The notes under the pieces: generated by a model
Database searches by the model: none
Seen by the model: only the letters and a program-made list of their open reading frames with translations
Told to the model about the DNA's origin: nothing
Shown: piece after piece, positions 20,309 through 34,005 of the stretch
Numbering within the stretch: the first letter of the stretch is position 1
Layout of the letters: every line of letters begins with the position of its first letter
Translations under genes and position numbers: made by a program
NCBI GenBank assembly: GCA_903859705.1
Contig: CAIONQ010000133.1
Location: 1-64,000, forward strand
Direction: 5' to 3'
Origin: an uncultured Chthonomonas sp.
Lineage (GTDB): Bacteria > Armatimonadota > Chthonomonadetes > Chthonomonadales > Chthonomonadaceae
DNA length: 64,000 nt

Positions 20309-22378
20309 TTAGCACGCAGGTAGTAAACGAGCAATTTTGCAGCGGCATATGCTGCACCAGCGTTCATGGTTTTCGGTTTGCCAGAAGTTGAGAGCGCTAT
20401 TGTAGGCAGTGCGTGCAGCTTCTGTTCGCCCTTGATTTGCGTGAATATCACCAAGGATTATTTGTGCCGCCGCTTTGCCAGCATGCCGTGCGCTGTTTTC
20501 ATAAAGCGATATAGCGTGTAGCACGTGTGCCTGTGCTTCGGCGAGGTTCCCTTCCTGGGTCCGTATTTCAGCAAGAACGCAAAGGCATTGGCCAATTCCA
20601 GAAATATCTGCTGCCTGCAACCGAATATCAAGCGAAATCTGAATTGAGCTTAACGCTTCTGCAAAGTGTTCCTTCTTTACAAGGGCCGTGCCCAGCAAAT
20701 AGTGGCACTCGGCCAGGGTAAGATCTGCAGGTTTAGCATTATGGTAAATCCTCATTGCCTGGTTCAGGCACTCTAACATTTCTGAGTAACGTCCCAGTGC
20801 CGATAGTATTTCGCTTCTTATCCGGAGGCAGCTTGCAGCCCAAAGCAGGTCTGAATAGCCGGTAACAAGGTTGTACTCACTGTCGTTATACAAAAGTGCT
20901 CTATCAGCATCGCCGGCATGGTGCCATGCCATACTCGCCTGGCCGTAAAGGTTGGCTGTAGATTGCCAACCACATTTATGAATAGGGTTATGGCATGCAT
21001 CGTACTCCAGGCAACATTCAAGGGCCTGTTCATATAAGCGGGCCGCTTCTTCAAATTTCCGGTTAGCTCTGCTCATTGCGGCAAGCCACTGAAGCGATAA
21101 GCGCCTGAGATTCAGCGGTTGATCAGCAGTTAGGCTGCGAGCGATGAAATCTGTTGCTGCGGCAGCAACACTCACATACTGCTTTGCTCTACATAAGTCC
21201 AGAAGCAGAAAGGTGCGCTCAGATAATGGCCGTGTAAGCATAAAGCTAACCGCGTTAGATAGCGCAATTGTGGCGCTATTGCGAGATGAAAACATTCCTG
21301 TGCCATCTGAAGGGATTGGAGCATCAGCTTCCAGCCATGTTATACAGCTGATAACAAGTGATTGCTGAACTGCCAGCTTTTGCGTCGCGCGCAAACGGTG
21401 GTTTGCGGATTCCCGAATCAAATCTGGCATCAGGAAATCTGTGTGAGAGGGCGTAATTAGATTGAGAGCATAGAAGCGTTCCAGCACGGATCTGGAAGCA
21501 TTGCCAACCGAATAGGCAAGCGCTTGCGAAAATGCGTAAGGCAGCACAGATAGCCGATACAACCGCTTGCGGTCTGCAACAGATAGCCCGGTAATACGTT
21601 CGTCCAGCACGCTATCAAACAATTTGCGCTCTCGGCCAGTTATCTTTATGCCTCTGCGCTGCCTGGAAGCAATGCGTTCCATCACATCTTCTACATCTTC
21701 ATCTGCAGTTAGGATGTCGTTTAAGTGAAGTATCTTGGCCTTTTGCCCCAGTTCCCACACTCTGGTGCGTGCTTCGGGATCGGTTGGAATAAATGCCAAC
21801 ACCCGGCGCGCCGTATAAAACGCAGCAGTAAAATCGTTAGTTTCTATTTGCATAGTGCAAACCTGCTTCAGCAAATCCACTGCAATCTGTTCAACAGCAT
21901 GGCGCACACTGCAGTACCAGGTGTGGCCAGGCTCGCTAATATCTATGCAGCCATCAACAAATGGGCCCGTTATCAGGGCGTCTGCAGTTCCCAGCAGTTC
22001 GGCACGCCTTACTTCATCTACACCATCTATCAGTTCTGAATGAATAGCAACAAGATCGTACACATCCACCTTAAACACGCCAGGTTTTATTGCAAGTGTA
22101 TGCCGCTGTGCAACGATGTTCTCGCTGCCAAAAATTCACTTGAGCAGGTGAATGGTTTGCCGTAAACAGTTCGCAGGGTCTTCAGATAAGCCACCCCAAA
22201 ACCTCTCGGCAATTTCTGAACGCTTCAGGGGTATTGGGTCTGTAATACATTTAGCACTCGGCACCAGTAAGGCGGCAACAACAGCCCATGTATGCCTTGA
22301 GCGCATTACAATGGGCTCCCCCAAACAACTGCCAGATGGGCGCCCCATTAGCCTGATTTCGTACCGATCTGAAGTCAT
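20309..22378 (-). pseudogene. SARP/BTAD-type TPR regulator interrupted by an in-frame TGA
   Basis: Reading from ATG 22378, an OmpR-like winged-helix domain (YEIRLMGRPSG, MRSRHTWAVVAALLV, LKRSEIAERFW, NCLRQTIHLLK) runs to a TGA at 22136-22138. The same frame then continues with IFGSENIVAQRHTLAIKPGVFKVDVYDLV (split here as two segments in the sequence), the normal continuation into a BTAD domain, a central helical region and TPRs up to 20309. The paralogue at 22883-24916 has Asn at the TGA position. All flanking sequence is conserved, so this is a single nonsense change (or a sequencing error), not a frameshift. Translation could restart at GTG 22078, giving a protein without its DNA-binding domain. 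Confidence 0.8.
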
Positions 22379-22882: not shown

Positions 22883-24916
22883 TTAATGCTGGCCCAGGTT
22901 GTGCAGACGGGCACGGCACTTGCCTATCCAGCGCTGATGTGAAACACTCACCCAGTAATCCAATGCCTGTTGTGCAGCATCAATTGCCTCGGCCTGCAAC
23001 CCCTGTTTTTCAAGGATAGTGCTCTTTATGAGAAGCGCTGCAGCTCTGTTTGCCGGCTTCTTAACAGCATCGCACAATAGCAATGCATGATCTATATGCA
23101 TTAAGGCCTCGGCAAGCAGGTTGAGCTCGGCACGAATCTCTGCAAACACGCGAAGGCATTGCTCAACACCGGTAATATCGTTCAGCTGTGTGCGAGCACC
23201 AAGTGCCTTTTCCGCATAAGAATACGCCTCAGAGTATCGGCCAACACTTTGTAGGGCCACCGCCAGCTGGTAATGGCACTCTGCCATCGTAAGCAGGTTT
23301 GTATCCTGGCATACGTAGATTTGAAGCGCCTGCTGCAGGCAGGAAAACATCTCATCCGTTCGGCCCGCTGCACCAAAAATCTCAGCCCTGAAACGGAGGG
23401 CGGAGGCGATCCCAAGCTGTAAATTCAGTGTTCGACAGAGCGTGATCTGTCGATCGCTAAACGTAAGTGCCCTTTCTGTATCTCCCAATCGATGCCATGC
23501 AATAGTGAGTATGTCTGATATTTGCAGCTCCTTTTCAACAGAGAATGCCGTACATGCAGGCAGCCACTCTTCGCAAATTTCGGCCGCTTCAACAAAGTTG
23601 TCTACGCCTAACTCCAGCAAACCCATACAGCAAACCGCCAGGTAGATCAGTTCCGGTGCCTCTGCAGTGCCTAGCACATTTAACACCCAACTTCGCATCG
23701 GGTACACTGCTTTGCCATAGCCACAAGAGGCAGCAACGGTAATAATATCCAGGGCAACTTTCACGGTGCCTGCATCTCTGGTAAGCTCTTCGGCAACCAT
23801 TACTACGGTGGCTTCGGCTGCACTACTATTCGGGAATAGACTGCCCTGCTCCGCAATATCAGTTGGCATCTTAACATACTCAATGCAAATAGCATGCAGG
23901 CGGAGCAGTGTTCTGCGGCGGTCGGGAAGCGGTAACTTGCGCCGCATCGCACTTCTTACGGGTTCATGAAACGTGCATCCAGAATTTGTGGGGACAACCA
24001 GCTTCAGGTGGAGTAATCTGGACAACTGTTGATGAGTTACACCACAAAGCGCGCGTGCCAGCGCTGGCGTAAACTCATCCGGCAACATAGCCAGCTTATA
24101 AAGTTTGAGTGCCTCTTTTTGCGAAAGGTGCTCCAAGCGCTCTTCCAGAAGGCGGCCAAAGAGTACGCTTTCCCTCGATGTGATCCTCGAACCACGTTTT
24201 AAACGCCGGTTTAACTTTGGTAGCAGGTCCTCAAAATCGTCATCTGGGTTCAATGTATCTGCCTCAACAACTATATGGGCCTTGCTGCCTAACTCCCATA
24301 CGCGGTCTCTGGCACTCTGGCTGGTTGGCTGCAGCTTCAATACGCGCGCGGCACTGTTGAATGCCGCCACCACGTCGCCTCGTTTCTCCAGCTCTGTGCT
24401 GTATCTGGTTAACAGGCTGGCAGAGAGTCCGTCAACGTCGGCCCTGTGTCTCTGGTACCAGTCGTAACCGCCCGTTCCCAGGTCTACAACATCCTCAAGA
24501 AATGAGCCGCGAATAAGCGTGCTGGCACTTTCCAGAAGATCCATAACTGTTTCTGAACTATCATCGCTGTTCAGTTTTCTGTCTATCAGAAACAGTTCAC
24601 TCAGGTCTGACTCCAACGCGTTATTGTTAAGCTGAAGCCTAAGCGATTCAGCTTCAAAAATGAAGGAAGGAAGCAGGTTTTTCAATAGGAAAACTATCTG
24701 TCTGAGCGAGTTTGCTGAGTTTGCGCTATCTCTGAAAAACAGATTGGCAACTTCTGCCCGGCTGCATACCCGCCAATCTGAACCAGCATTTGCCGGCCTC
24801 AGTAGCATATAGGCAAGCACCTTCCATGCATGCCGAGATCGCAGCACTATCGGCTTATCGCCGATCATAAGCTGCGGCTTTCCGATAATTGATAGCCTGG
24901 GTCTGTTTGAATTCAA
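22883..24916 (-). CDS. SARP-like (winged helix-BTAD-TPR) transcriptional regulator
   Basis: A 677-residue regulator. The N-terminal OmpR/PhoB-type winged helix (about 7-95: RLSIIGKPQLMIGDKPIVLR, SRHAWKVLAYMLLRPA, SLRQIVFLLKNLLP) is followed by a bacterial transcriptional activation domain (about 100-245, FLEDVVDLGTGGYDW, LKLQPTSQSARDRVWELG). A helical middle and at least five TPRs (about 400-670) follow. Family members bind direct repeats next to -35 regions and activate transcription. The TTG start at 24916 is the only in-frame option that keeps the first strand, and it lacks a clear ribosome-binding site. It is divergent from the propeller gene at 25090, a likely target. Confidence 0.75.
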   Translation of the reverse strand: MNSNRPRLSIIGKPQLMIGDKPIVLRSRHAWKVLAYMLLRPANAGSDWRVCSRAEVANLFFRDSANSANSLRQIVFLLKNLLPSFIFEAESLRLQLNNNALESDLSELFLIDRKLNSDDSSETVMDLLESASTLIRGSFLEDVVDLGTGGYDWYQRHRADVDGLSASLLTRYSTELEKRGDVVAAFNSAARVLKLQPTSQSARDRVWELGSKAHIVVEADTLNPDDDFEDLLPKLNRRLKRGSRITSRESVLFGRLLEERLEHLSQKEALKLYKLAMLPDEFTPALARALCGVTHQQLSRLLHLKLVVPTNSGCTFHEPVRSAMRRKLPLPDRRRTLLRLHAICIEYVKMPTDIAEQGSLFPNSSAAEATVVMVAEELTRDAGTVKVALDIITVAASCGYGKAVYPMRSWVLNVLGTAEAPELIYLAVCCMGLLELGVDNFVEAAEICEEWLPACTAFSVEKELQISDILTIAWHRLGDTERALTFSDRQITLCRTLNLQLGIASALRFRAEIFGAAGRTDEMFSCLQQALQIYVCQDTNLLTMAECHYQLAVALQSVGRYSEAYSYAEKALGARTQLNDITGVEQCLRVFAEIRAELNLLAEALMHIDHALLLCDAVKKPANRAAALLIKSTILEKQGLQAEAIDAAQQALDYWVSVSHQRWIGKCRARLHNLGQH

Positions 24917-25089: not shown

Positions 25090-26001
25090 TTGAAGACAAC
25101 CACATTCCTCTCTCTCACCTCAATTCTGTGCTGCCTTCTGGCGCCCGGAGTTACGAAAGCACAAACGGCCTACGTTACCAGTTTTGGGAGCTTTACGGAT
25201 GGCAGCGGAGGAAAGGTGGTGCAATACAACGCATCTGGCGTGTTTCAACGAAACTTTGCCGCTGTGAATTCTGCTCACGATGTTGTCTTCGATGTTCAAC
25301 GTGACGTCTATGTAGGCAGTTTTTTTGCAGGAACAGTTACCAAATTTGACCCCAATGGCAATGGCGGATCCATCTATGCGGGGCCGGGCACCAATCGGGG
25401 CGCAACAGGGCTGGTGTTTGATTCCAATGGTCGCCTGTATGTTTCGGATCAGGCTACGGGGTTTATCTATCGCTACGATGCCAGCGGCCACAATCAAACA
25501 ATCTTCGCCAGTGGTATCAGCTCGCCAAACCATATGAAAATCCACGGCGGAAATCTCTATGTTACAAGCCAGGCAGCGGGCACGGTACTGGAGTACTCGT
25601 TAGATGGAAGATTCCTTCGGACCGTGGTATCCGGGGTTCCTGGAATTGTGGGGTTGGATTTCGATGCAACCGGCGCGCTCTACGTCAGCAGCAATTTTAA
25701 TGGTTTCATCCGCCGTTATGCGCCAGGCAGCGCCTCCGGGGTAGATATCGTAACTGGCCTGGTTAACCCGCATGGCGTAACCATCGGGCCGGATCAGATG
25801 CTGTACGTTGCTGAAGAGCTCCGAGACCGCGTTCTGGAATTTCACCTGGATGGTTCCGGCCAATCTACCTTCATCTCAGTCAGCCACCCGGTAGAGATTG
25901 AATTCCTGGCCGCCTCCACCCCTGAGCCAGGTACGTGGGCATTGCTTGGCTGCCTTGGTATGAGCGGGGCCAGCCTCTACATGCGCCGCCGCCGTAGATA
26001 A
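25090..26001 (+). CDS. Secreted SMP-30/NHL-like beta-propeller with PEP-CTERM tail
   Basis: A 303-residue protein: signal peptide (about 1-25), then a six-bladed propeller with repeated units of the type GLVFDSNGRLYVSDQATG, NHMKIHGGNLYVTSQAAG, GLDFDATGALYVSSNFNG and GVTIGPDQMLYVAEEL. The C-terminus is TPEPGTWALLGCLGM, a hydrophobic helix, then RRRRR, a PEP-CTERM-type sorting signal for exosortase. TTG 25090 is 8 bases after GAAAGGA. A paralogue with the same design lies at 32930-33853. No exosortase is in the window. The ligand or enzyme activity is unknown. Confidence 0.8.
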   Translation: MKTTTFLSLTSILCCLLAPGVTKAQTAYVTSFGSFTDGSGGKVVQYNASGVFQRNFAAVNSAHDVVFDVQRDVYVGSFFAGTVTKFDPNGNGGSIYAGPGTNRGATGLVFDSNGRLYVSDQATGFIYRYDASGHNQTIFASGISSPNHMKIHGGNLYVTSQAAGTVLEYSLDGRFLRTVVSGVPGIVGLDFDATGALYVSSNFNGFIRRYAPGSASGVDIVTGLVNPHGVTIGPDQMLYVAEELRDRVLEFHLDGSGQSTFISVSHPVEIEFLAASTPEPGTWALLGCLGMSGASLYMRRRRR

Positions 26002-26395: not shown

Positions 26396-26968
26396 ATGAA
26401 CAAACCTGTTGCCTCAATAGATGCTTCTGTTTCAATCTACCGAATAGAGTACGAGCGCCTCAAATACGAACAATCTCAGCGGATCCAGTTTAGAGACAAC
26501 CTATTGCTGGCCCACCTTACAGTTGTTGGCGCAATAGTTGGCTTCGCAATTACCAATTCCCACAACCCACTGATTGCTTATGCATATCTGGTAGTGCCAT
26601 GGACAAGCAGCATCATCGGATGGGCATACCTGAATAATGACATTGTCATCAGTAAAATCCGAAATTACCTGCGTGATGAACTCTCACCAAGGCTGAACAA
26701 GGAGTGTGGGGTCCCACATGCATTCGGCTGGGAAACCACAGTGCGCTCAAGCGCTGGAAGAACAACCCGCAAGCTCGCACAATTGTTTATTGATCTGGCT
26801 GCCTTTACGGTGCCAGCTGTGGCGGCCTTGTGCAGACTGCCCTATATACATTACCCAACTAACCACGATAGCTTTCCCTACCTGGTTGTCGCCGATGTGG
26901 TAATGGCTTCTGTATTCGCATTGTATATGTTCGTCTGGAGTGTCTCAGAGTTACGTAATCTGGGTTAG
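26396..26968 (+). CDS. Four-helix membrane protein, candidate partner of the PNP-STAND gene
   Basis: A 190-residue protein. An N-terminal charged helix (about 12-35, SIYRIEYERLKYEQSQRIQF) precedes two adjacent transmembrane helices (about 37-55 and 60-83), a basic cytoplasmic loop (about 85-125) and two more helices (about 128-147 and 160-180). I recognise no named family. The layout resembles small membrane proteins encoded beside bacterial signalling or immune NTPases. The start is unclear: ATG 26396 has no good ribosome-binding site, and TTG 26387 is possible. It lies 77 bases upstream of the large NTPase gene in the same direction and is probably co-transcribed. Confidence 0.7.
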   Translation: MNKPVASIDASVSIYRIEYERLKYEQSQRIQFRDNLLLAHLTVVGAIVGFAITNSHNPLIAYAYLVVPWTSSIIGWAYLNNDIVISKIRNYLRDELSPRLNKECGVPHAFGWETTVRSSAGRTTRKLAQLFIDLAAFTVPAVAALCRLPYIHYPTNHDSFPYLVVADVVMASVFALYMFVWSVSELRNLG

Positions 26969-27045
26969 TGGTTCACCACATGTCCAGCCTGCTCTAAACC
27001 ACCGCATGGCAGAGTGTTTTCTATCAAATCGTCTGGGAGATGGCC

Positions 27046-30000
27046 GTGAAACCAATATACCAACTACCTGTTGAACCACACCTGAGACATCACTATCGTT
27101 TGGCAATACAGACTCTTGTTATTACTGCCGCCCCCCCGGAACAGGAGGCGGTTTTACGTGCCCTTGGTACTCCGCCAATGTTAGATGAAGTAAAGGACTT
27201 TCACACAATTGGAGTTACAAATGAGGGAGCACACCTCTTTCAGATTGGCAAACTTGGAGACCATATTGTTGCGCATGTTAACCTGCTAAATCAGGGCAAT
27301 GCTGTCCTTCAGCCTACTATTGAAAGCGCGCGCACACTCTTCCCGGAGTTAAAAATCCTGCTGATGCCAGGAATGTGCTTTGGTCTCCACGCAGAGGGTA
27401 ACCCTGATAACGTTCCAGTTCCACATGGTGGACAAAATTTTGGAGATTTGTTAGTAGCCACAGGGATTCTGGATACACACCGCTTCCTATTGAACCAGCA
27501 CAGGGTATGGACAGCAAAGGAACTATGGGCCGCCGAGACCCCAACGAATCCTCACCTCGTAGCCTATTTGTATGATGTAAAAGTTCGAGCTGAGCACACA
27601 ACGAAGTGCAAAATACATATGGGGACGATGCTAACTGTCCCAGAGGTGGTTCGTGAAAGTGAGCCAAGGGCTTTGCTTCATAATACACTTGGCAATTGGC
27701 CCGACGGCTCTATTTACGCAATTGGCGGTGACATGGAAGGCGATGCACTCTATGGTGTGCAACAGTACTTCGTCAACAATCCGGCAGCAAACAATCTATA
27801 TGCCCTCGTCATCAAAGGAATTAGTGATTGGGGCGTTGGTAAGCTGCCACCAGGACACCCTGGCAGACCGGCTCAGGAGATAGCACGTGTACTTGCCAGC
27901 AACCAGTCCGTAAAGTTCCTGCAGTTTCTGCTAACCGATGCCATGTTTGCAGAAACGTGCGGATTGCGGGCATATCGGACCCACCGGGGCTCAGGTGATT
28001 CCATAATCGGGCAACCATCGACCCCCGGAAGAGATATGCCAGGCGCCGCGTATGCTGGGATCGTTCGAAACGCAGGTAATGGGTATCAAAGTACTGACGA
28101 CTGTAAACACTGGGTAAAGCAATTTGTCGTTAAGAACCCGCCGCTCAGGCATCTGGTGATCACTGGGCCGGGTGGGCGTGGCAAAACATACTTTGCTCGA
28201 CAGATTATTGCCGACCTGCAAACAGCTGCCGGACACAGCCGTGTAATCTGGATCAATTGTGGATCCGACGAGTCGTTTGTGACCCAATTGATAAGCCAGC
28301 TTGACCGTGGCAACCTGATACCGGATGATCTTGAAGGTCAGTTTCATCGGATCATTGATGACATTCAGAATAGCGCTGGAGGCACCGCACAACGGGCAAT
28401 GTTCGCAAGTGGGTCAGAGCTAAAGACCTTCCTTCAATCACATATATTTGGCAATGCCAACCTACCTGTATATATGGTGCTGGATGACTTGGACAGGTAC
28501 CAGCAGGACCTGAAAATACCATTCGGTGAAACCGCCAGTCCGGTGGCATCCTTTCTCGGTGCCTTCACTGTTGCCGGTAGTGCATTGCGGACTATATCGA
28601 CTGTTAGAGATGAGGAAATTGCCAGGCTCTTCAGGGGGCTACTCATGGTTTCTGACGAGTACTTTGGGATTACACATGACGGTCTGTCGCCCCTCAAAAC
28701 CCCGGATATCCAGAAGTTCTTTGTAGACAGACACAACGTAAAAACCGCCCTTGCTACGGAACCAGCAATGGTTGAGTTCTGCAAACTGATTCCTGGTGAA
28801 CCATTAATCTTAATGCAGATTGAAAATGCCATTGACGGCAAGACTGCTGACGAATCCGTCTCGTTCTTACAATCTATCGTAAAACTCTGCCAGGAAGCGT
28901 CTGCTCAGGGGAAGGACATCGCACAGGAGTTGAGGGACATGCTCTTTAGCCAGCAAATTCGGTCCATCAGTTTCCCAGCTCAAAAAGTAGCTGAAATAGC
29001 TGCAATATTGGTGGATACTCGGTTTGTCCCGCTCTCGAATTCAGTTCTCCATGGTAGGTTGTCGACTATGGATGCCCTGGTTCGTGAACTGTATGACGCA
29101 GAACTCAATGAGCAGGACCTGCGCGCTATTAAAAATGAGCTGAAAACACGGCACATACTCCGCGCTGATGACCTGGATAGAGGCATCTACCGGTTCTACT
29201 ACGATGCCAACAACGAGTGGCTTGTTACCAAAGGTATGCCAGCCGAACGGCTTGTAGAACTGCATCTCAGGGCAACAAACCTTTTTGAGTCAAATGCAGA
29301 TAGTCTGCATCTTCCAGAGTACCAGGCATGGCATTTGATGGAGGCCGGGCAGCCGGAAGCAGCATTTGATCTATTGATGCGCCATTCTGCAACTCTGAAC
29401 GCACAGTACAAGCGTGGACATCTGCTTCGGCTTCACCAGTTCCTCCGCATCCGGTTGTGGAAACAAGTCGGAAGCGAGTGGAAATATAATCTAATACGGC
29501 AGGAGCCCCGTTGGTACATAAATCAGGGCAAGCTCGCTGAAATACTCTACTATGGATTTAGCCTTTCAAACAAAGCAATTGAATTCGATGCAGACAACAA
29601 GAAGCTTCAGGTACAGACGCAGTGGGAGATGGTGAACAATGTTCTCGATCACCTTGGCCGGTTCGTAAACGACCCACACCTGCTAAGGAACAATAGAGAA
29701 ATGCAAGGATGGATAGCCGACACCTACTCACGTAGTACGCTCCAACGTGCTGTCCTTGTATTTGAGAAGGAAGTTCCTGAAGAAGATCCACTGTACATTC
29801 GTTCAGCAACTCGGGATAACGAATGGCTGGCTGGCGAAGCAGAGCAAGTGCTGACGCTAATGAACGTGTCAACCGCTAACCCTAAGCCAATTGATCCTCC
29901 ATTTGCCGCGATGGCGGCAAACTTCTGGGGGTGTTTCTTGAACGGATGGGATCATCTACCCGAAGCTATATCAGCATATCGGCTGAGCGCAACGATGCTT

Positions 30001-31002
30001 GAGGAGTATGCAAATGATATTGCGTCTCATAACAGACAATTGCCGCCAGACTTCGAAGTTGGATTGATGCGGGATCGCCTGGACATAGCAAACAATTGGT
30101 CAAGATCACGGTTCTTATCATCAGGCCCCACTTTCGCACTGGATGGCTGCGGTACTGGGCAGGCCAATGGTATGCTTACCAAATATGAGAGATTCGCTGA
30201 GCTTCTGGACACTACAAGGGATCTAACAGATTCCTATGTGGAATATACATATGCTCTGATAGATGCAGCGTACTACTACCTTGCATTAGGGCAATTGGCA
30301 CAGATGTCCGCCATCCTTGATAGGGCATATAGGTTGGAAGATGACGGCATACACATATTGCTGTCAGAGGGGCGAACGAAAAATGGCCTGGAGGGAATGG
30401 TAAATCCAACCGTTCGTGCACAGGACAAACCCACCAAACGCGCCTACGATGACTGGATTGAGGGTTATATCGATGCACTTGAAGTTGCACTCTTTTTCTA
30501 CCGTGATGTGCCAGCCGCCGATGTTCAAGTGCATGCCGAAGTCTGCAGTGCTGCATTCCGGAACTGTGAGATAGCTTTTGATGGTGACCATTTTGGGTAC
30601 AAGCGCGATCGCTATTTTATGTATGCAAACGCTGCACTTGTCGAAATCTGGGCAGAGCCATCTGTAGACGTGAAGCGTGAAAAACTTGTGGCCCTCATTG
30701 AAAAATTACAAAAGGAAGACGTCTATAATGAACCTGTATGTCGGGATGTAATGCTCTACCTATCCGTGATTACAGGGCTGGCATCTAAAGATACCGACAG
30801 TTCTGCTAAAGCGGGCTATGAAAAGACCGTGATGCGATTTCCGGGATTGGATCATAATCCCAATCTCGCCGAGCACTCCTGGAGGCCGCCAATCATTCTG
30901 CGAGGTGCGCTCCAAATGGTGCCCGTAGTTCGTACCCCGCAGCCACAGGAGCTCGGATTTAAGGCCTGGCCGCCGCCACCGCCCAGTTCAGAAAGCCAGT
31001 AA
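27046..31002 (+). CDS. PNP/nucleosidase-STAND (NLR-like) NTPase with a helical repeat C-terminus
   Basis: About 1318 residues (numbered here from the in-frame ATG at 27040). Residues 23-300 have a nucleoside-phosphorylase/MTAN fold: LVITAAPPEQEAVL, GDHIVAHV, GMCFGL, GDMEGDAL (Asp231-Met232-Glu233) and VIKGISDWG (Asp263), matching the catalytic Glu and Asp regions of the family. A STAND/NACHT-like NTPase follows: Walker A GPGGRGKT at 376-383, Walker B VYMVLDDLD at 477-485 and sensor-like STVRDEE near 520. Residues 750-1320 are helical, TPR-like, and end in a Pro-rich tail. PNP domains fused to NLR-type NTPases occur in animals, fungi and bacteria, and some cleave ATP in immunity. GTG 27046 is preferred because GGGAG lies 6 bases before it. 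Confidence 0.8.
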   Translation: MKPIYQLPVEPHLRHHYRLAIQTLVITAAPPEQEAVLRALGTPPMLDEVKDFHTIGVTNEGAHLFQIGKLGDHIVAHVNLLNQGNAVLQPTIESARTLFPELKILLMPGMCFGLHAEGNPDNVPVPHGGQNFGDLLVATGILDTHRFLLNQHRVWTAKELWAAETPTNPHLVAYLYDVKVRAEHTTKCKIHMGTMLTVPEVVRESEPRALLHNTLGNWPDGSIYAIGGDMEGDALYGVQQYFVNNPAANNLYALVIKGISDWGVGKLPPGHPGRPAQEIARVLASNQSVKFLQFLLTDAMFAETCGLRAYRTHRGSGDSIIGQPSTPGRDMPGAAYAGIVRNAGNGYQSTDDCKHWVKQFVVKNPPLRHLVITGPGGRGKTYFARQIIADLQTAAGHSRVIWINCGSDESFVTQLISQLDRGNLIPDDLEGQFHRIIDDIQNSAGGTAQRAMFASGSELKTFLQSHIFGNANLPVYMVLDDLDRYQQDLKIPFGETASPVASFLGAFTVAGSALRTISTVRDEEIARLFRGLLMVSDEYFGITHDGLSPLKTPDIQKFFVDRHNVKTALATEPAMVEFCKLIPGEPLILMQIENAIDGKTADESVSFLQSIVKLCQEASAQGKDIAQELRDMLFSQQIRSISFPAQKVAEIAAILVDTRFVPLSNSVLHGRLSTMDALVRELYDAELNEQDLRAIKNELKTRHILRADDLDRGIYRFYYDANNEWLVTKGMPAERLVELHLRATNLFESNADSLHLPEYQAWHLMEAGQPEAAFDLLMRHSATLNAQYKRGHLLRLHQFLRIRLWKQVGSEWKYNLIRQEPRWYINQGKLAEILYYGFSLSNKAIEFDADNKKLQVQTQWEMVNNVLDHLGRFVNDPHLLRNNREMQGWIADTYSRSTLQRAVLVFEKEVPEEDPLYIRSATRDNEWLAGEAEQVLTLMNVSTANPKPIDPPFAAMAANFWGCFLNGWDHLPEAISAYRLSATMLEEYANDIASHNRQLPPDFEVGLMRDRLDIANNWSRSRFLSSGPTFALDGCGTGQANGMLTKYERFAELLDTTRDLTDSYVEYTYALIDAAYYYLALGQLAQMSAILDRAYRLEDDGIHILLSEGRTKNGLEGMVNPTVRAQDKPTKRAYDDWIEGYIDALEVALFFYRDVPAADVQVHAEVCSAAFRNCEIAFDGDHFGYKRDRYFMYANAALVEIWAEPSVDVKREKLVALIEKLQKEDVYNEPVCRDVMLYLSVITGLASKDTDSSAKAGYEKTVMRFPGLDHNPNLAEHSWRPPIILRGALQMVPVVRTPQPQELGFKAWPPPPPSSESQ

Positions 31003-31014
31003 AGGCAACAAACA

Positions 31015-31671
31015 ATGACCACCACACAACTAACCACCGCACCCGCCGGGCCGGGTGAAATCCGAGAAGTAAAATCTCGGCAGGATCCTGCTCTGGGGAA
31101 GGTGTTCGATATCTATCAAAAGAGCTTCCCGCTTACAGAGCAGATGCTTATCTCCTTTTTTCTGGATTTTCTAACTAAAAAGGAAGCCGGGGAGGCAGAA
31201 CAGTTTCGGCTGGAGGTTCTGGAGGTAGAGGGCAAGGTGCTGGCCTTTGCTTTTTATGAGGCCGGCTCTGCCGATGGCGATCTGGGCAACTCCGCATATC
31301 TGTGGTACCTGGCCGTCAACCCGGATATGCGGGGTGGTGGCTACGGCAAGCGCATGTATTTCCATGTGCTGAATACCGCGTTTACGGAGTTTGAAGCACG
31401 CGCCTTGCTCTACGAAATTGAAACGCCGGAGGATGTAGAAGGTGAAGAGGGCAAGGCCTTTGCAGAGTGGCGCACCGGCTGGTACCGTTCCATGGGCGCT
31501 AAAGCTCTCCTCGGCACCCGCTATATGTGCGGTGTGGATTGGCAGCCCCCGGTTCCCATGCAGGTTATGGTGCATGCCAGTGGACCAATTACCGCCGAAG
31601 AAGCCCTGGCTCTGGCACGGGCAACTCAGGATGAAGGCATCGAACAAACAGGGCCGCTATCCCTGGAGTAA
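31015..31671 (+). CDS. GNAT-family N-acetyltransferase
   Basis: A 218-residue protein. The acetyl-CoA binding motif is AVNPDMRGGGYGKRMYFHVL (V-x-P-x-x-R-x-x-G-x-G-x-x, motif A), preceded by beta strands LEVLEVEGKVLAFAFYEA and YLWYLAV. A conserved EIETPED-type acidic segment and WYRSMGAKAL follow, as in small-molecule acetyltransferases. AAAGG lies 9 bases before the ATG. It starts 12 bases after the PNP-STAND gene, so it could share the transcript, but nothing in its sequence ties it to immunity. The acceptor is unknown. Confidence 0.8.
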   Translation: MTTTQLTTAPAGPGEIREVKSRQDPALGKVFDIYQKSFPLTEQMLISFFLDFLTKKEAGEAEQFRLEVLEVEGKVLAFAFYEAGSADGDLGNSAYLWYLAVNPDMRGGGYGKRMYFHVLNTAFTEFEARALLYEIETPEDVEGEEGKAFAEWRTGWYRSMGAKALLGTRYMCGVDWQPPVPMQVMVHASGPITAEEALALARATQDEGIEQTGPLSLE

Positions 31672-32929: not shown

Positions 32930-33853
32930 TTACTTACCATTTCTTCGGCGCCTGCGGGCTATAACTCCCGCGCTCATCACCACGCAGGATGCAAAAAGCG
33001 CCACACTGCCCGGCTCTGGCGTGGAGGGCTCTGCCGCAAAAAACAGATGAGTGGAGCTGCCCAATCCGCTTACAAACGGAGTTACCACGCCTGTTGGTGT
33101 AATCTCATCAATCACGTTGGAGGTGTAGTTAGCAACAAACAAATTGCCAGCCGCGTTAAAGGCCATGCCGTAGGGCTGCGGCGTGCTCGCAAAGTACGTT
33201 GCCGGTCCGCCACCGGGCGCCATCTTTCCAATCTGGTTGTGAAACGGGTCTCCAAGGTAAAGGTTGCCGCTGGCATCAAAAGCAAGCGTGCCAGGCTCAA
33301 TACTGCCAGTATTTGCGTATAGCGATACGGTGCCTGTGGGCGTAATCTGCTGAATCCTATCGGAGGTGTACTCTCCAACAAGTATGTTGCCGTTAGCAGC
33401 AATCGCCAGGCCAGCTGGCCGGGTAAGTCCGCTTGCCAGCGTGGTTACTGTGCCTGTAGGGGTTATCTTTGTTACCGTTCCGCCATATTCACTGCTAACA
33501 TAAATGTTATCGTGCTTATCTATCGCCACCTCTTCAGGGCCAAAAATTCCGGTGGCAAACTGTGTGGATACACCCGCCGGGGTAATTTTATAAAGTGAGT
33601 TACTGCTGTACACCGATACAAAGATGTTGCCGTGAGAATCCCGAGCCATGCCAGCCAGCCCAAGCGGGGCAGTTGCAAACAGGGTAGAAGTGCCAGCGGG
33701 AGTAACCTTGTATATAGATCCCGCATAGTCGGCCACATAAAGGTCTTGTGCAGTGGCGCGCCTGGCGGCAGATGTGCCGGATAGCAGCATCGCACAGATG
33801 AGAAGCGCACTCTTCCGCTTCTGAAAACGTCCAATCAGGGTGCTTAAATGCAT
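32930..33853 (-). CDS. Secreted NHL/SMP-30-like beta-propeller with PEP-CTERM tail
   Basis: About 307 residues: signal peptide (about 1-35, ending near ATAQ), then six similar blades of roughly 40 residues, each with a DxxGNI(F/Y)V-type strand and a TP-G-type turn (SHGNIFVSVYSSNSLYKIT, KHDNIYVSSEYGGTVTKIT, ASGNLYLGDPFHNQIGKM, AAGNLFVANYTSN). The tail STPEPGSVALF, a hydrophobic helix and RRRRR form a PEP-CTERM-like signal. ATG 33853 follows AAGGAG at 11 bases. It is a distant paralogue of 25090-26001, which lies on the opposite strand at the other side of the PNP-STAND region. Confidence 0.8.
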   Translation of the reverse strand: MHLSTLIGRFQKRKSALLICAMLLSGTSAARRATAQDLYVADYAGSIYKVTPAGTSTLFATAPLGLAGMARDSHGNIFVSVYSSNSLYKITPAGVSTQFATGIFGPEEVAIDKHDNIYVSSEYGGTVTKITPTGTVTTLASGLTRPAGLAIAANGNILVGEYTSDRIQQITPTGTVSLYANTGSIEPGTLAFDASGNLYLGDPFHNQIGKMAPGGGPATYFASTPQPYGMAFNAAGNLFVANYTSNVIDEITPTGVVTPFVSGLGSSTHLFFAAEPSTPEPGSVALFASCVVMSAGVIARRRRRNGK

Positions 33854-34005
33854 CTCAGTCAATTCTCCTTATGTCTATTACAGCTCTACACTCTGTTGTT
33901 CAGCATCCATTGGCGTAGCCACCAATTACTGTAGCGGCCAAGGTGAGACAGATTTGTGACGGAGGCACAGTCCTGAACCCTTTTCTGCCAATTTTGTGAC
34001 CATTT

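Follow-up and report, generated by a model that had tools for sequence, protein, structure and literature searches.

A nucleosidase-STAND protein and its four-helix membrane partner: a candidate two-gene NLR-like immune module in an uncultured Chthonomonas sp.

What is the function of two adjacent genes that encode a small membrane protein and a long protein joining a nucleosidase-like domain to a STAND NTPase? The first-pass annotation proposed that they are the two components of an immune module. The window, which is the whole stretch of 64,000 nucleotides analysed here, is part of a 6.24-Mb genome, and the genes of the locus are as follows.

26396–26968, + strand: gene A, 190 aa, ATG start, four-helix membrane protein (4TM); N-terminal helix, TM1/TM2, basic loop, TM3/TM4
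27040–31002, + strand: gene B, 1320 aa, ATG start, nucleosidase-STAND protein
31015–31671, + strand: GNAT acetyltransferase gene, 12 bp downstream of gene B

Gene A and gene B are on the same (+) strand with a gap of 71 bp. The GNAT gene may be on the same transcript as gene B, and there is no evidence that it is part of the two-gene system. The neighbours of genes A and B are ordinary chromosomal genes. No recognisable defence gene was found among the window ORFs by inspection, and the PADLOC scan covered genes A and B and the GNAT gene. The first-pass annotation suggested checking whether the genes lie in defence islands; here the locus lies outside any obvious island. Two paralogous TPR regulators are located side by side upstream (20309–22078 and 22883–24916, − strand), and one of them has a weak BTAD match. 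On either side of the locus is a gene for an NHL/beta-propeller-like protein with a PEP-CTERM-like end (25090–26001, + strand; 32930–33862, − strand). Over its full length, the gene B protein occurs in one genome among the 291 searched in the phylum, and the locus is missing from the sequenced congener, including the position beside the conserved glcD block. The distribution in the phylum is sporadic. Thus, gene B is not the conserved housekeeping locus that the first-pass annotation had set against its own proposal, and lack of co-occurrence, the other such outcome, was not found either, as described below.

The N-terminal part of gene B contains the following features.

27103–27954, + strand: PNP/MTAN-type nucleosidase domain, about residues 22–305
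27139–27141, + strand: Glu34, in register with the family's first catalytic Glu
27736–27738, + strand: Glu233 of the ME motif (DMEGDAL, residues 231–237)
27826–27828, + strand: Asp263 of the ISD motif (GISDW, residues 260–264)

The domain has no direct match in Pfam (PF01048 included), PADLOC or NCBIfam, and the PADLOC PN-superfamily effector model does not match it. Its best relative is a stand-alone protein of 337 aa from another genome of the phylum, with 33% identity over the aligned domain, and this relative matches PNP_UDP_1 with E = 0.0048. A profile built from the window and four distant relatives was compared with the PDB, and MTA/SAH nucleosidases were matched with a best E of 1.7e-17; DeoD-type phosphorylases were matched too, ranked much lower. 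When a profile built from only the window and the 33%-identical homologue was compared by hhalign with PNP domains of conflict systems, the alignment spanned 220 columns (probability 94.9, E = 4.7e-8) and the catalytic positions were in register. According to the profile alignments, the aligned catalytic motifs are E34, M232-E233 and S262-D263. The AlphaFold model calculated from five sequences is of low confidence (pLDDT 52), and the best 50 Foldseek matches of this model are all of the phosphorylase superfamily, with a top E of about 1e-8. As predicted from profiles and model together, the assignment of the N-terminus to the phosphorylase-superfamily fold is sound. The phosphorylase-like domain and the numbering of the DME (E233) and GISD (D263) motifs in the first-pass annotation are thus upheld, and the absence of a PNP_UDP fold, which would have counted against it, is not what the profile and structure searches gave. 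As MTA/SAH nucleosidases are, by sequence, the closest relatives of solved structure, the substrate could differ from ATP.

Relatives of this domain are few. No match to gene B or its nucleosidase domain was found in plasmids by tblastn, no relative of the nucleosidase alignment was found in viral contigs, and the genome contigs gave five distant loci only. In the nearest PNP relatives the domain is either joined to TM segments (L007, L008) or encoded next to another TM gene (L003). The two fusions are Phytohabitans proteins (L007 8873–10783, L008 8876–10783) with multiple TM segments and a C-terminal KGISDWG-type PNP domain, and from their sequences they may represent a one-gene version of the membrane–nucleosidase link. 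A PNP-fusion protein of Catenibacillus (L009 6308–11394) is located among small kinase, phosphoribosyltransferase-like, deoxyribosyltransferase-like and transporter-like genes, possibly a nucleotide-modification cluster.

The remainder of gene B consists of an NTPase and a long C-terminal region.

28096–28719, + strand: STAND-type NTPase region, about residues 353–560 (AAA_16, nSTAND_NTPase5, NB-ARC, NPHP3_N, NACHT)
28165–28188, + strand: Walker A, GPGGRGKT, residues 376–383, containing K382
28477–28494, + strand: Walker B, VLDDLD, residues 480–485
28720–30999, + strand: C-terminal region, residues 561–1320, about 760 residues, helical-looking

Residues 338–653 scanned alone against Pfam gave AAA_16 (E = 2.8e-7), nSTAND_NTPase5 (4.4e-6) and NB-ARC (2.3e-5), and of these three only NB-ARC exceeds the Pfam cut-off in the domain scan; NPHP3_N and NACHT were matched as well. 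A P-loop NTPase of the STAND or AP-ATPase type is therefore located between the N-terminal effector and the C-terminal region, and the Walker motifs, their residue numbers and the STAND call proposed earlier are right. The C-terminal region, described earlier as helical repeats, does look helical, so that the description is plausible, but the sole repeat match is a weak, sub-threshold TPR_14 (E = 0.13). Judged from its sequence, the region is probably a helical sensor. It has no relatives outside this genome in the data searched, which fits a fast-evolving sensor without proving one.

Gene A encodes a protein with about four hydrophobic helices. The N-terminal helix of the family carries the motif EYxxLKxEQxxRIxFRDN, and the basic loop after TM2, which is presumably cytosolic, carries NDxxIS, YxR, GWE and R..RK..Q. 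An alignment of 23 homologues contains 24 invariant columns. Gene A of the window had no match among the families of Pfam, NCBIfam, PADLOC and PHROGs, and some homologues show weak and mutually inconsistent matches to unrelated family models. S_4TM (PF18159) was considered and rejected as the identity of this family (best Pfam E of 6.6 in one member, hhalign probability of 0.2%); in a genome carrying both, S_4TM and the gene A-type protein are encoded at separate loci. The SLATT Pfam models matched none of six family members at E ≤ 10. A structure search with the 4TM model was uninformative and matched no known channel. No homologue of gene A was found in annotated phages.

The distribution of gene A homologues connects the two genes. 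A search of plasmids with gene A gave six records corresponding to five distinct neighbourhoods (Nostoc, Calothrix, Leptolyngbya and Streptomyces), and in all five a PNP-domain gene is located within 2.6 kb of the 4TM gene. The Leptolyngbya partner is PNP-PNP-AAA_16 (STAND), and the Calothrix partner is PNP-SAVED with a second PNP. The gene A HMM matched in 41 of 249 Streptomycetaceae genomes and in 4 of 296 sampled genomes of the phylum of that family, and the protein search in the window's phylum gave 2 of 291 genomes, the window itself and one weak match. Neighbourhoods, mostly of 14 kb, were inspected in cyanobacteria and Streptomycetaceae. A PNP domain is present within 3.4 kb of the 4TM gene in 37 of 43 clear homologues, "clear" meaning E < 1e-38, a cut-off set after the scores were seen, and in 37 of 50 when weak matches are counted. 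A weak match in genome G260 (L013/L029), beside sugar-isomerase-like genes, was left out of the clear homologues. Streptomyces genomes of 7.6–11.3 Mb contain 5–10 PF01048 matches each, and the frequency of a PNP within 3.4 kb expected by chance is about 0.6%. Many of the Streptomyces loci are orthologous, so that the 37 pairings represent fewer independent events.

The paired PNP proteins differ in architecture: PNP alone, PNP-SAVED, PNP-EAD2, PNP-TPR-PIN(-GreABC), PNP-PNP-STAND (AAA_16) and NACHT-HEAT-PNP, the last with 1204 and 1317 aa. Gene orders vary as well (divergent; 4TM then PNP, as in the window; PNP – 2TM gene – 4TM), and the partner and gene-order classes interleave on the 4TM tree. 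The distances of 4TM and PNP proteins are correlated (r = 0.82 overall, 0.63–0.65 without the common operon class), and none of 2000 permutations gave a value as high; shared vertical descent can contribute part of this correlation. The catalytic E/E/D residues are intact in 41 of 42 PNP domains. The degenerate domain is that of Nostoc NIES-3756, fused to TPR-PIN-GreABC (L016 1632–5789), and an intact PNP gene is located 4.7 kb from it (L016 3–1301). PNP partners elsewhere, as distinct from the window domain, match the CBASS PN-superfamily effector model of PADLOC, and several pairs are plasmid-borne. These results strongly support the two-component idea of the first-pass annotation: 4TM and PNP genes recur together in cyanobacteria and actinobacteria, including two other STAND-PNP architectures. 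What the partners have in common is a PNP domain with intact catalytic residues, and their sensors differ; most likely, therefore, it is this domain or its product on which gene A depends.

An operon of PNP, a large 2TM protein and 4TM recurs in Streptomyces (L060–L065, L067, L068, L073, L074 and L018), accompanied in L018 by a NUDIX gene. This operon is apparently a variant form of the system.

Among the clear 4TM homologues, six are without a PNP gene nearby. Three of these six (L066, L081 and L075) have as neighbours either vWA proteins together with a P450 gene or a TIR-repeat protein, which suggests use of the 4TM protein in other conflict systems. Intact 4TM proteins with complete key motifs are also encoded on two viral contigs of actinophage type, 153 and 128 kb long (L019 8285–8854, L020 about 1905–2462), and no PF01048 match was found anywhere in these two records. 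The phage-borne protein is possibly a decoy or inhibitor of PNP systems, or is used independently. Because of the six PNP-less homologues and the two phage contigs, 4TM can serve otherwise than with a PNP partner.

The antiphage STAND proteins Avs and bNACHT contain an N-terminal effector, a STAND NTPase and a long C-terminal sensor region. Compared by layout, gene B is similar to these proteins, but its effector is another one and the system has two genes. Cap17 PNP effectors occur in CBASS, Detocs, pAgo, DRT8 and NLR-like systems and degrade (d)ATP, according to the account of Rousset et al. (2023) given in PMC10952713, and the PNP of Detocs converts ATP to adenine and ribose-5'-triphosphate (PMC11249213). 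As in gene B, these systems, NLR-like proteins included, combine an invader sensor with a phosphorylase-superfamily nucleosidase, by fusion or by coupling, whereas the window domain is too divergent for the PF01048 and PADLOC PN models and is paired with a 4TM gene. A PNPase together with the 2TM protein SLATT is a predicted theme of GTPase-centric conflict systems, in which SLATT is expected to form a pore that responds to nucleotides (Kaur et al., 2020, PMC7159879). These systems also place a small membrane protein next to a nucleotide-cleaving effector; the window differs in having four TM segments rather than two, a STAND sensor and no adjacent GTPase gene. S_4TM, the SMODS-associating 4TM effector, resembles gene A in its four TM segments and its partnership with nucleotide-signalling conflict systems, but has no sequence relation to it. 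The MTA/SAH nucleosidases share the fold and the catalytic Glu/Glu/Asp with the gene B domain; they are stand-alone metabolic enzymes, whereas the domain of gene B is fused to STAND and paired with a membrane protein. PNPase, EAD, STAND and TPR-GreAB-C-PIN modules are described conflict-system parts (PMC7159879, PMC8195603). The Caulobacter CARD-NLR paper was dismissed as a PNP precedent, since "PNP" occurs there only in a plasmid name. STAND proteins with PNP effectors are thus a kind already described, and PNP with a small TM protein has been predicted, so that the absence of a described two-gene precedent, as noted in the first-pass annotation, narrows to the 4TM partner. No description of the 4TM family as a PNP partner was found in the literature searched, and the novelty of the pairing is provisional.

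How could the two proteins act together? The C-terminal region of gene B would sense an invader product, and the STAND NTPase, as in its family, would switch and oligomerise the protein. Oligomerisation would cluster and activate the N-terminal MTAN/PNP-type nucleosidase, which would split (d)ATP, the most likely substrate, or another purine nucleotide into base and ribose phosphate. Gene A, whose association with the PNP effector class is observed, would be a dedicated membrane partner, and its most likely place of action is downstream, at the cytoplasmic membrane. The PNP domain or its product may trigger a response of the conserved loop and N-terminal helix of gene A, upon which the protein with its four helices may perturb the membrane. 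Both ATP as the substrate and the antiphage function of the window locus are what we infer. The locus would then be a two-component NLR-like abortive-infection module, composed of a purine-nucleotide-destroying receptor and a membrane effector, and we give this reading an even chance. Counting against it are the ordinary neighbours, the MTA/SAH-like domain, the lack of a channel match for the 4TM model and the PNP-less 4TM genes.

Alternatively, the immune nucleosidase may be as described, with gene A not a killing effector but a protein that restrains, anchors or localises the PNP protein. It would hold the enzyme at the membrane, or keep it inactive, until an event at the membrane, such as phage entry or the action of lysis proteins, sets it free. 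The pairing tracks the PNP domain rather than the sensor type, the correlated 4TM–PNP distances are expected of direct binding partners, TM segments or a TM gene accompany the PNP domain in its nearest relatives, and 4TM without PNP on phage contigs would suit a decoy or inhibitor. However, six clear homologues lack a PNP neighbour, and the three of them near other conflict-type genes (vWA, TIR) fit a membrane effector shared between systems better than an inhibitor specific to PNP. We regard this explanation as a real contender of lower probability, and place it after the membrane effector that works together with the nucleosidase.

Housekeeping or developmental signalling, such as nucleoside salvage or a stress signal, would agree with the metabolic nature of the nearest solved relatives, the absence of a defence island and the often multicellular or developmentally complex carriers. 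This function is unlikely, given that gene B is confined to a single genome of the 291 and missing from the congener, that the partners elsewhere carry the conflict domains SAVED, EAD2, NACHT and PIN-TPR-GreABC and match CBASS effector models, and that several pairs are on plasmids. Chance adjacency, for which the non-overlapping genes 71 bp apart and the occasional gene A homologues without a PNP gene could be cited, is excluded by the conserved pairing and in effect refuted by 37 of 43 against about 0.6%, in several gene orders and architectures.

Thus, the abortive-infection module with a membrane effector is the reading that we prefer. PNP-type immune effectors are generally regarded as working via ATP destruction. 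Somewhat doubtfully, gene A may found a family of 4TM membrane effectors gated by the PNP product (e.g. ribose-5'-triphosphate or free base). If so, nucleotide cleavage would be a second-messenger step that feeds a membrane pore, beyond ATP depletion. The results suggest that the 4TM protein is an unnamed standard partner of a known immune-effector class. It accompanies PNP effectors in several phyla and with at least six sensor architectures, which implies a second, unrecognised step in this immunity. The phage-borne copies may be counter-defence, and the 4TM family provides a sequence handle for finding further such systems.
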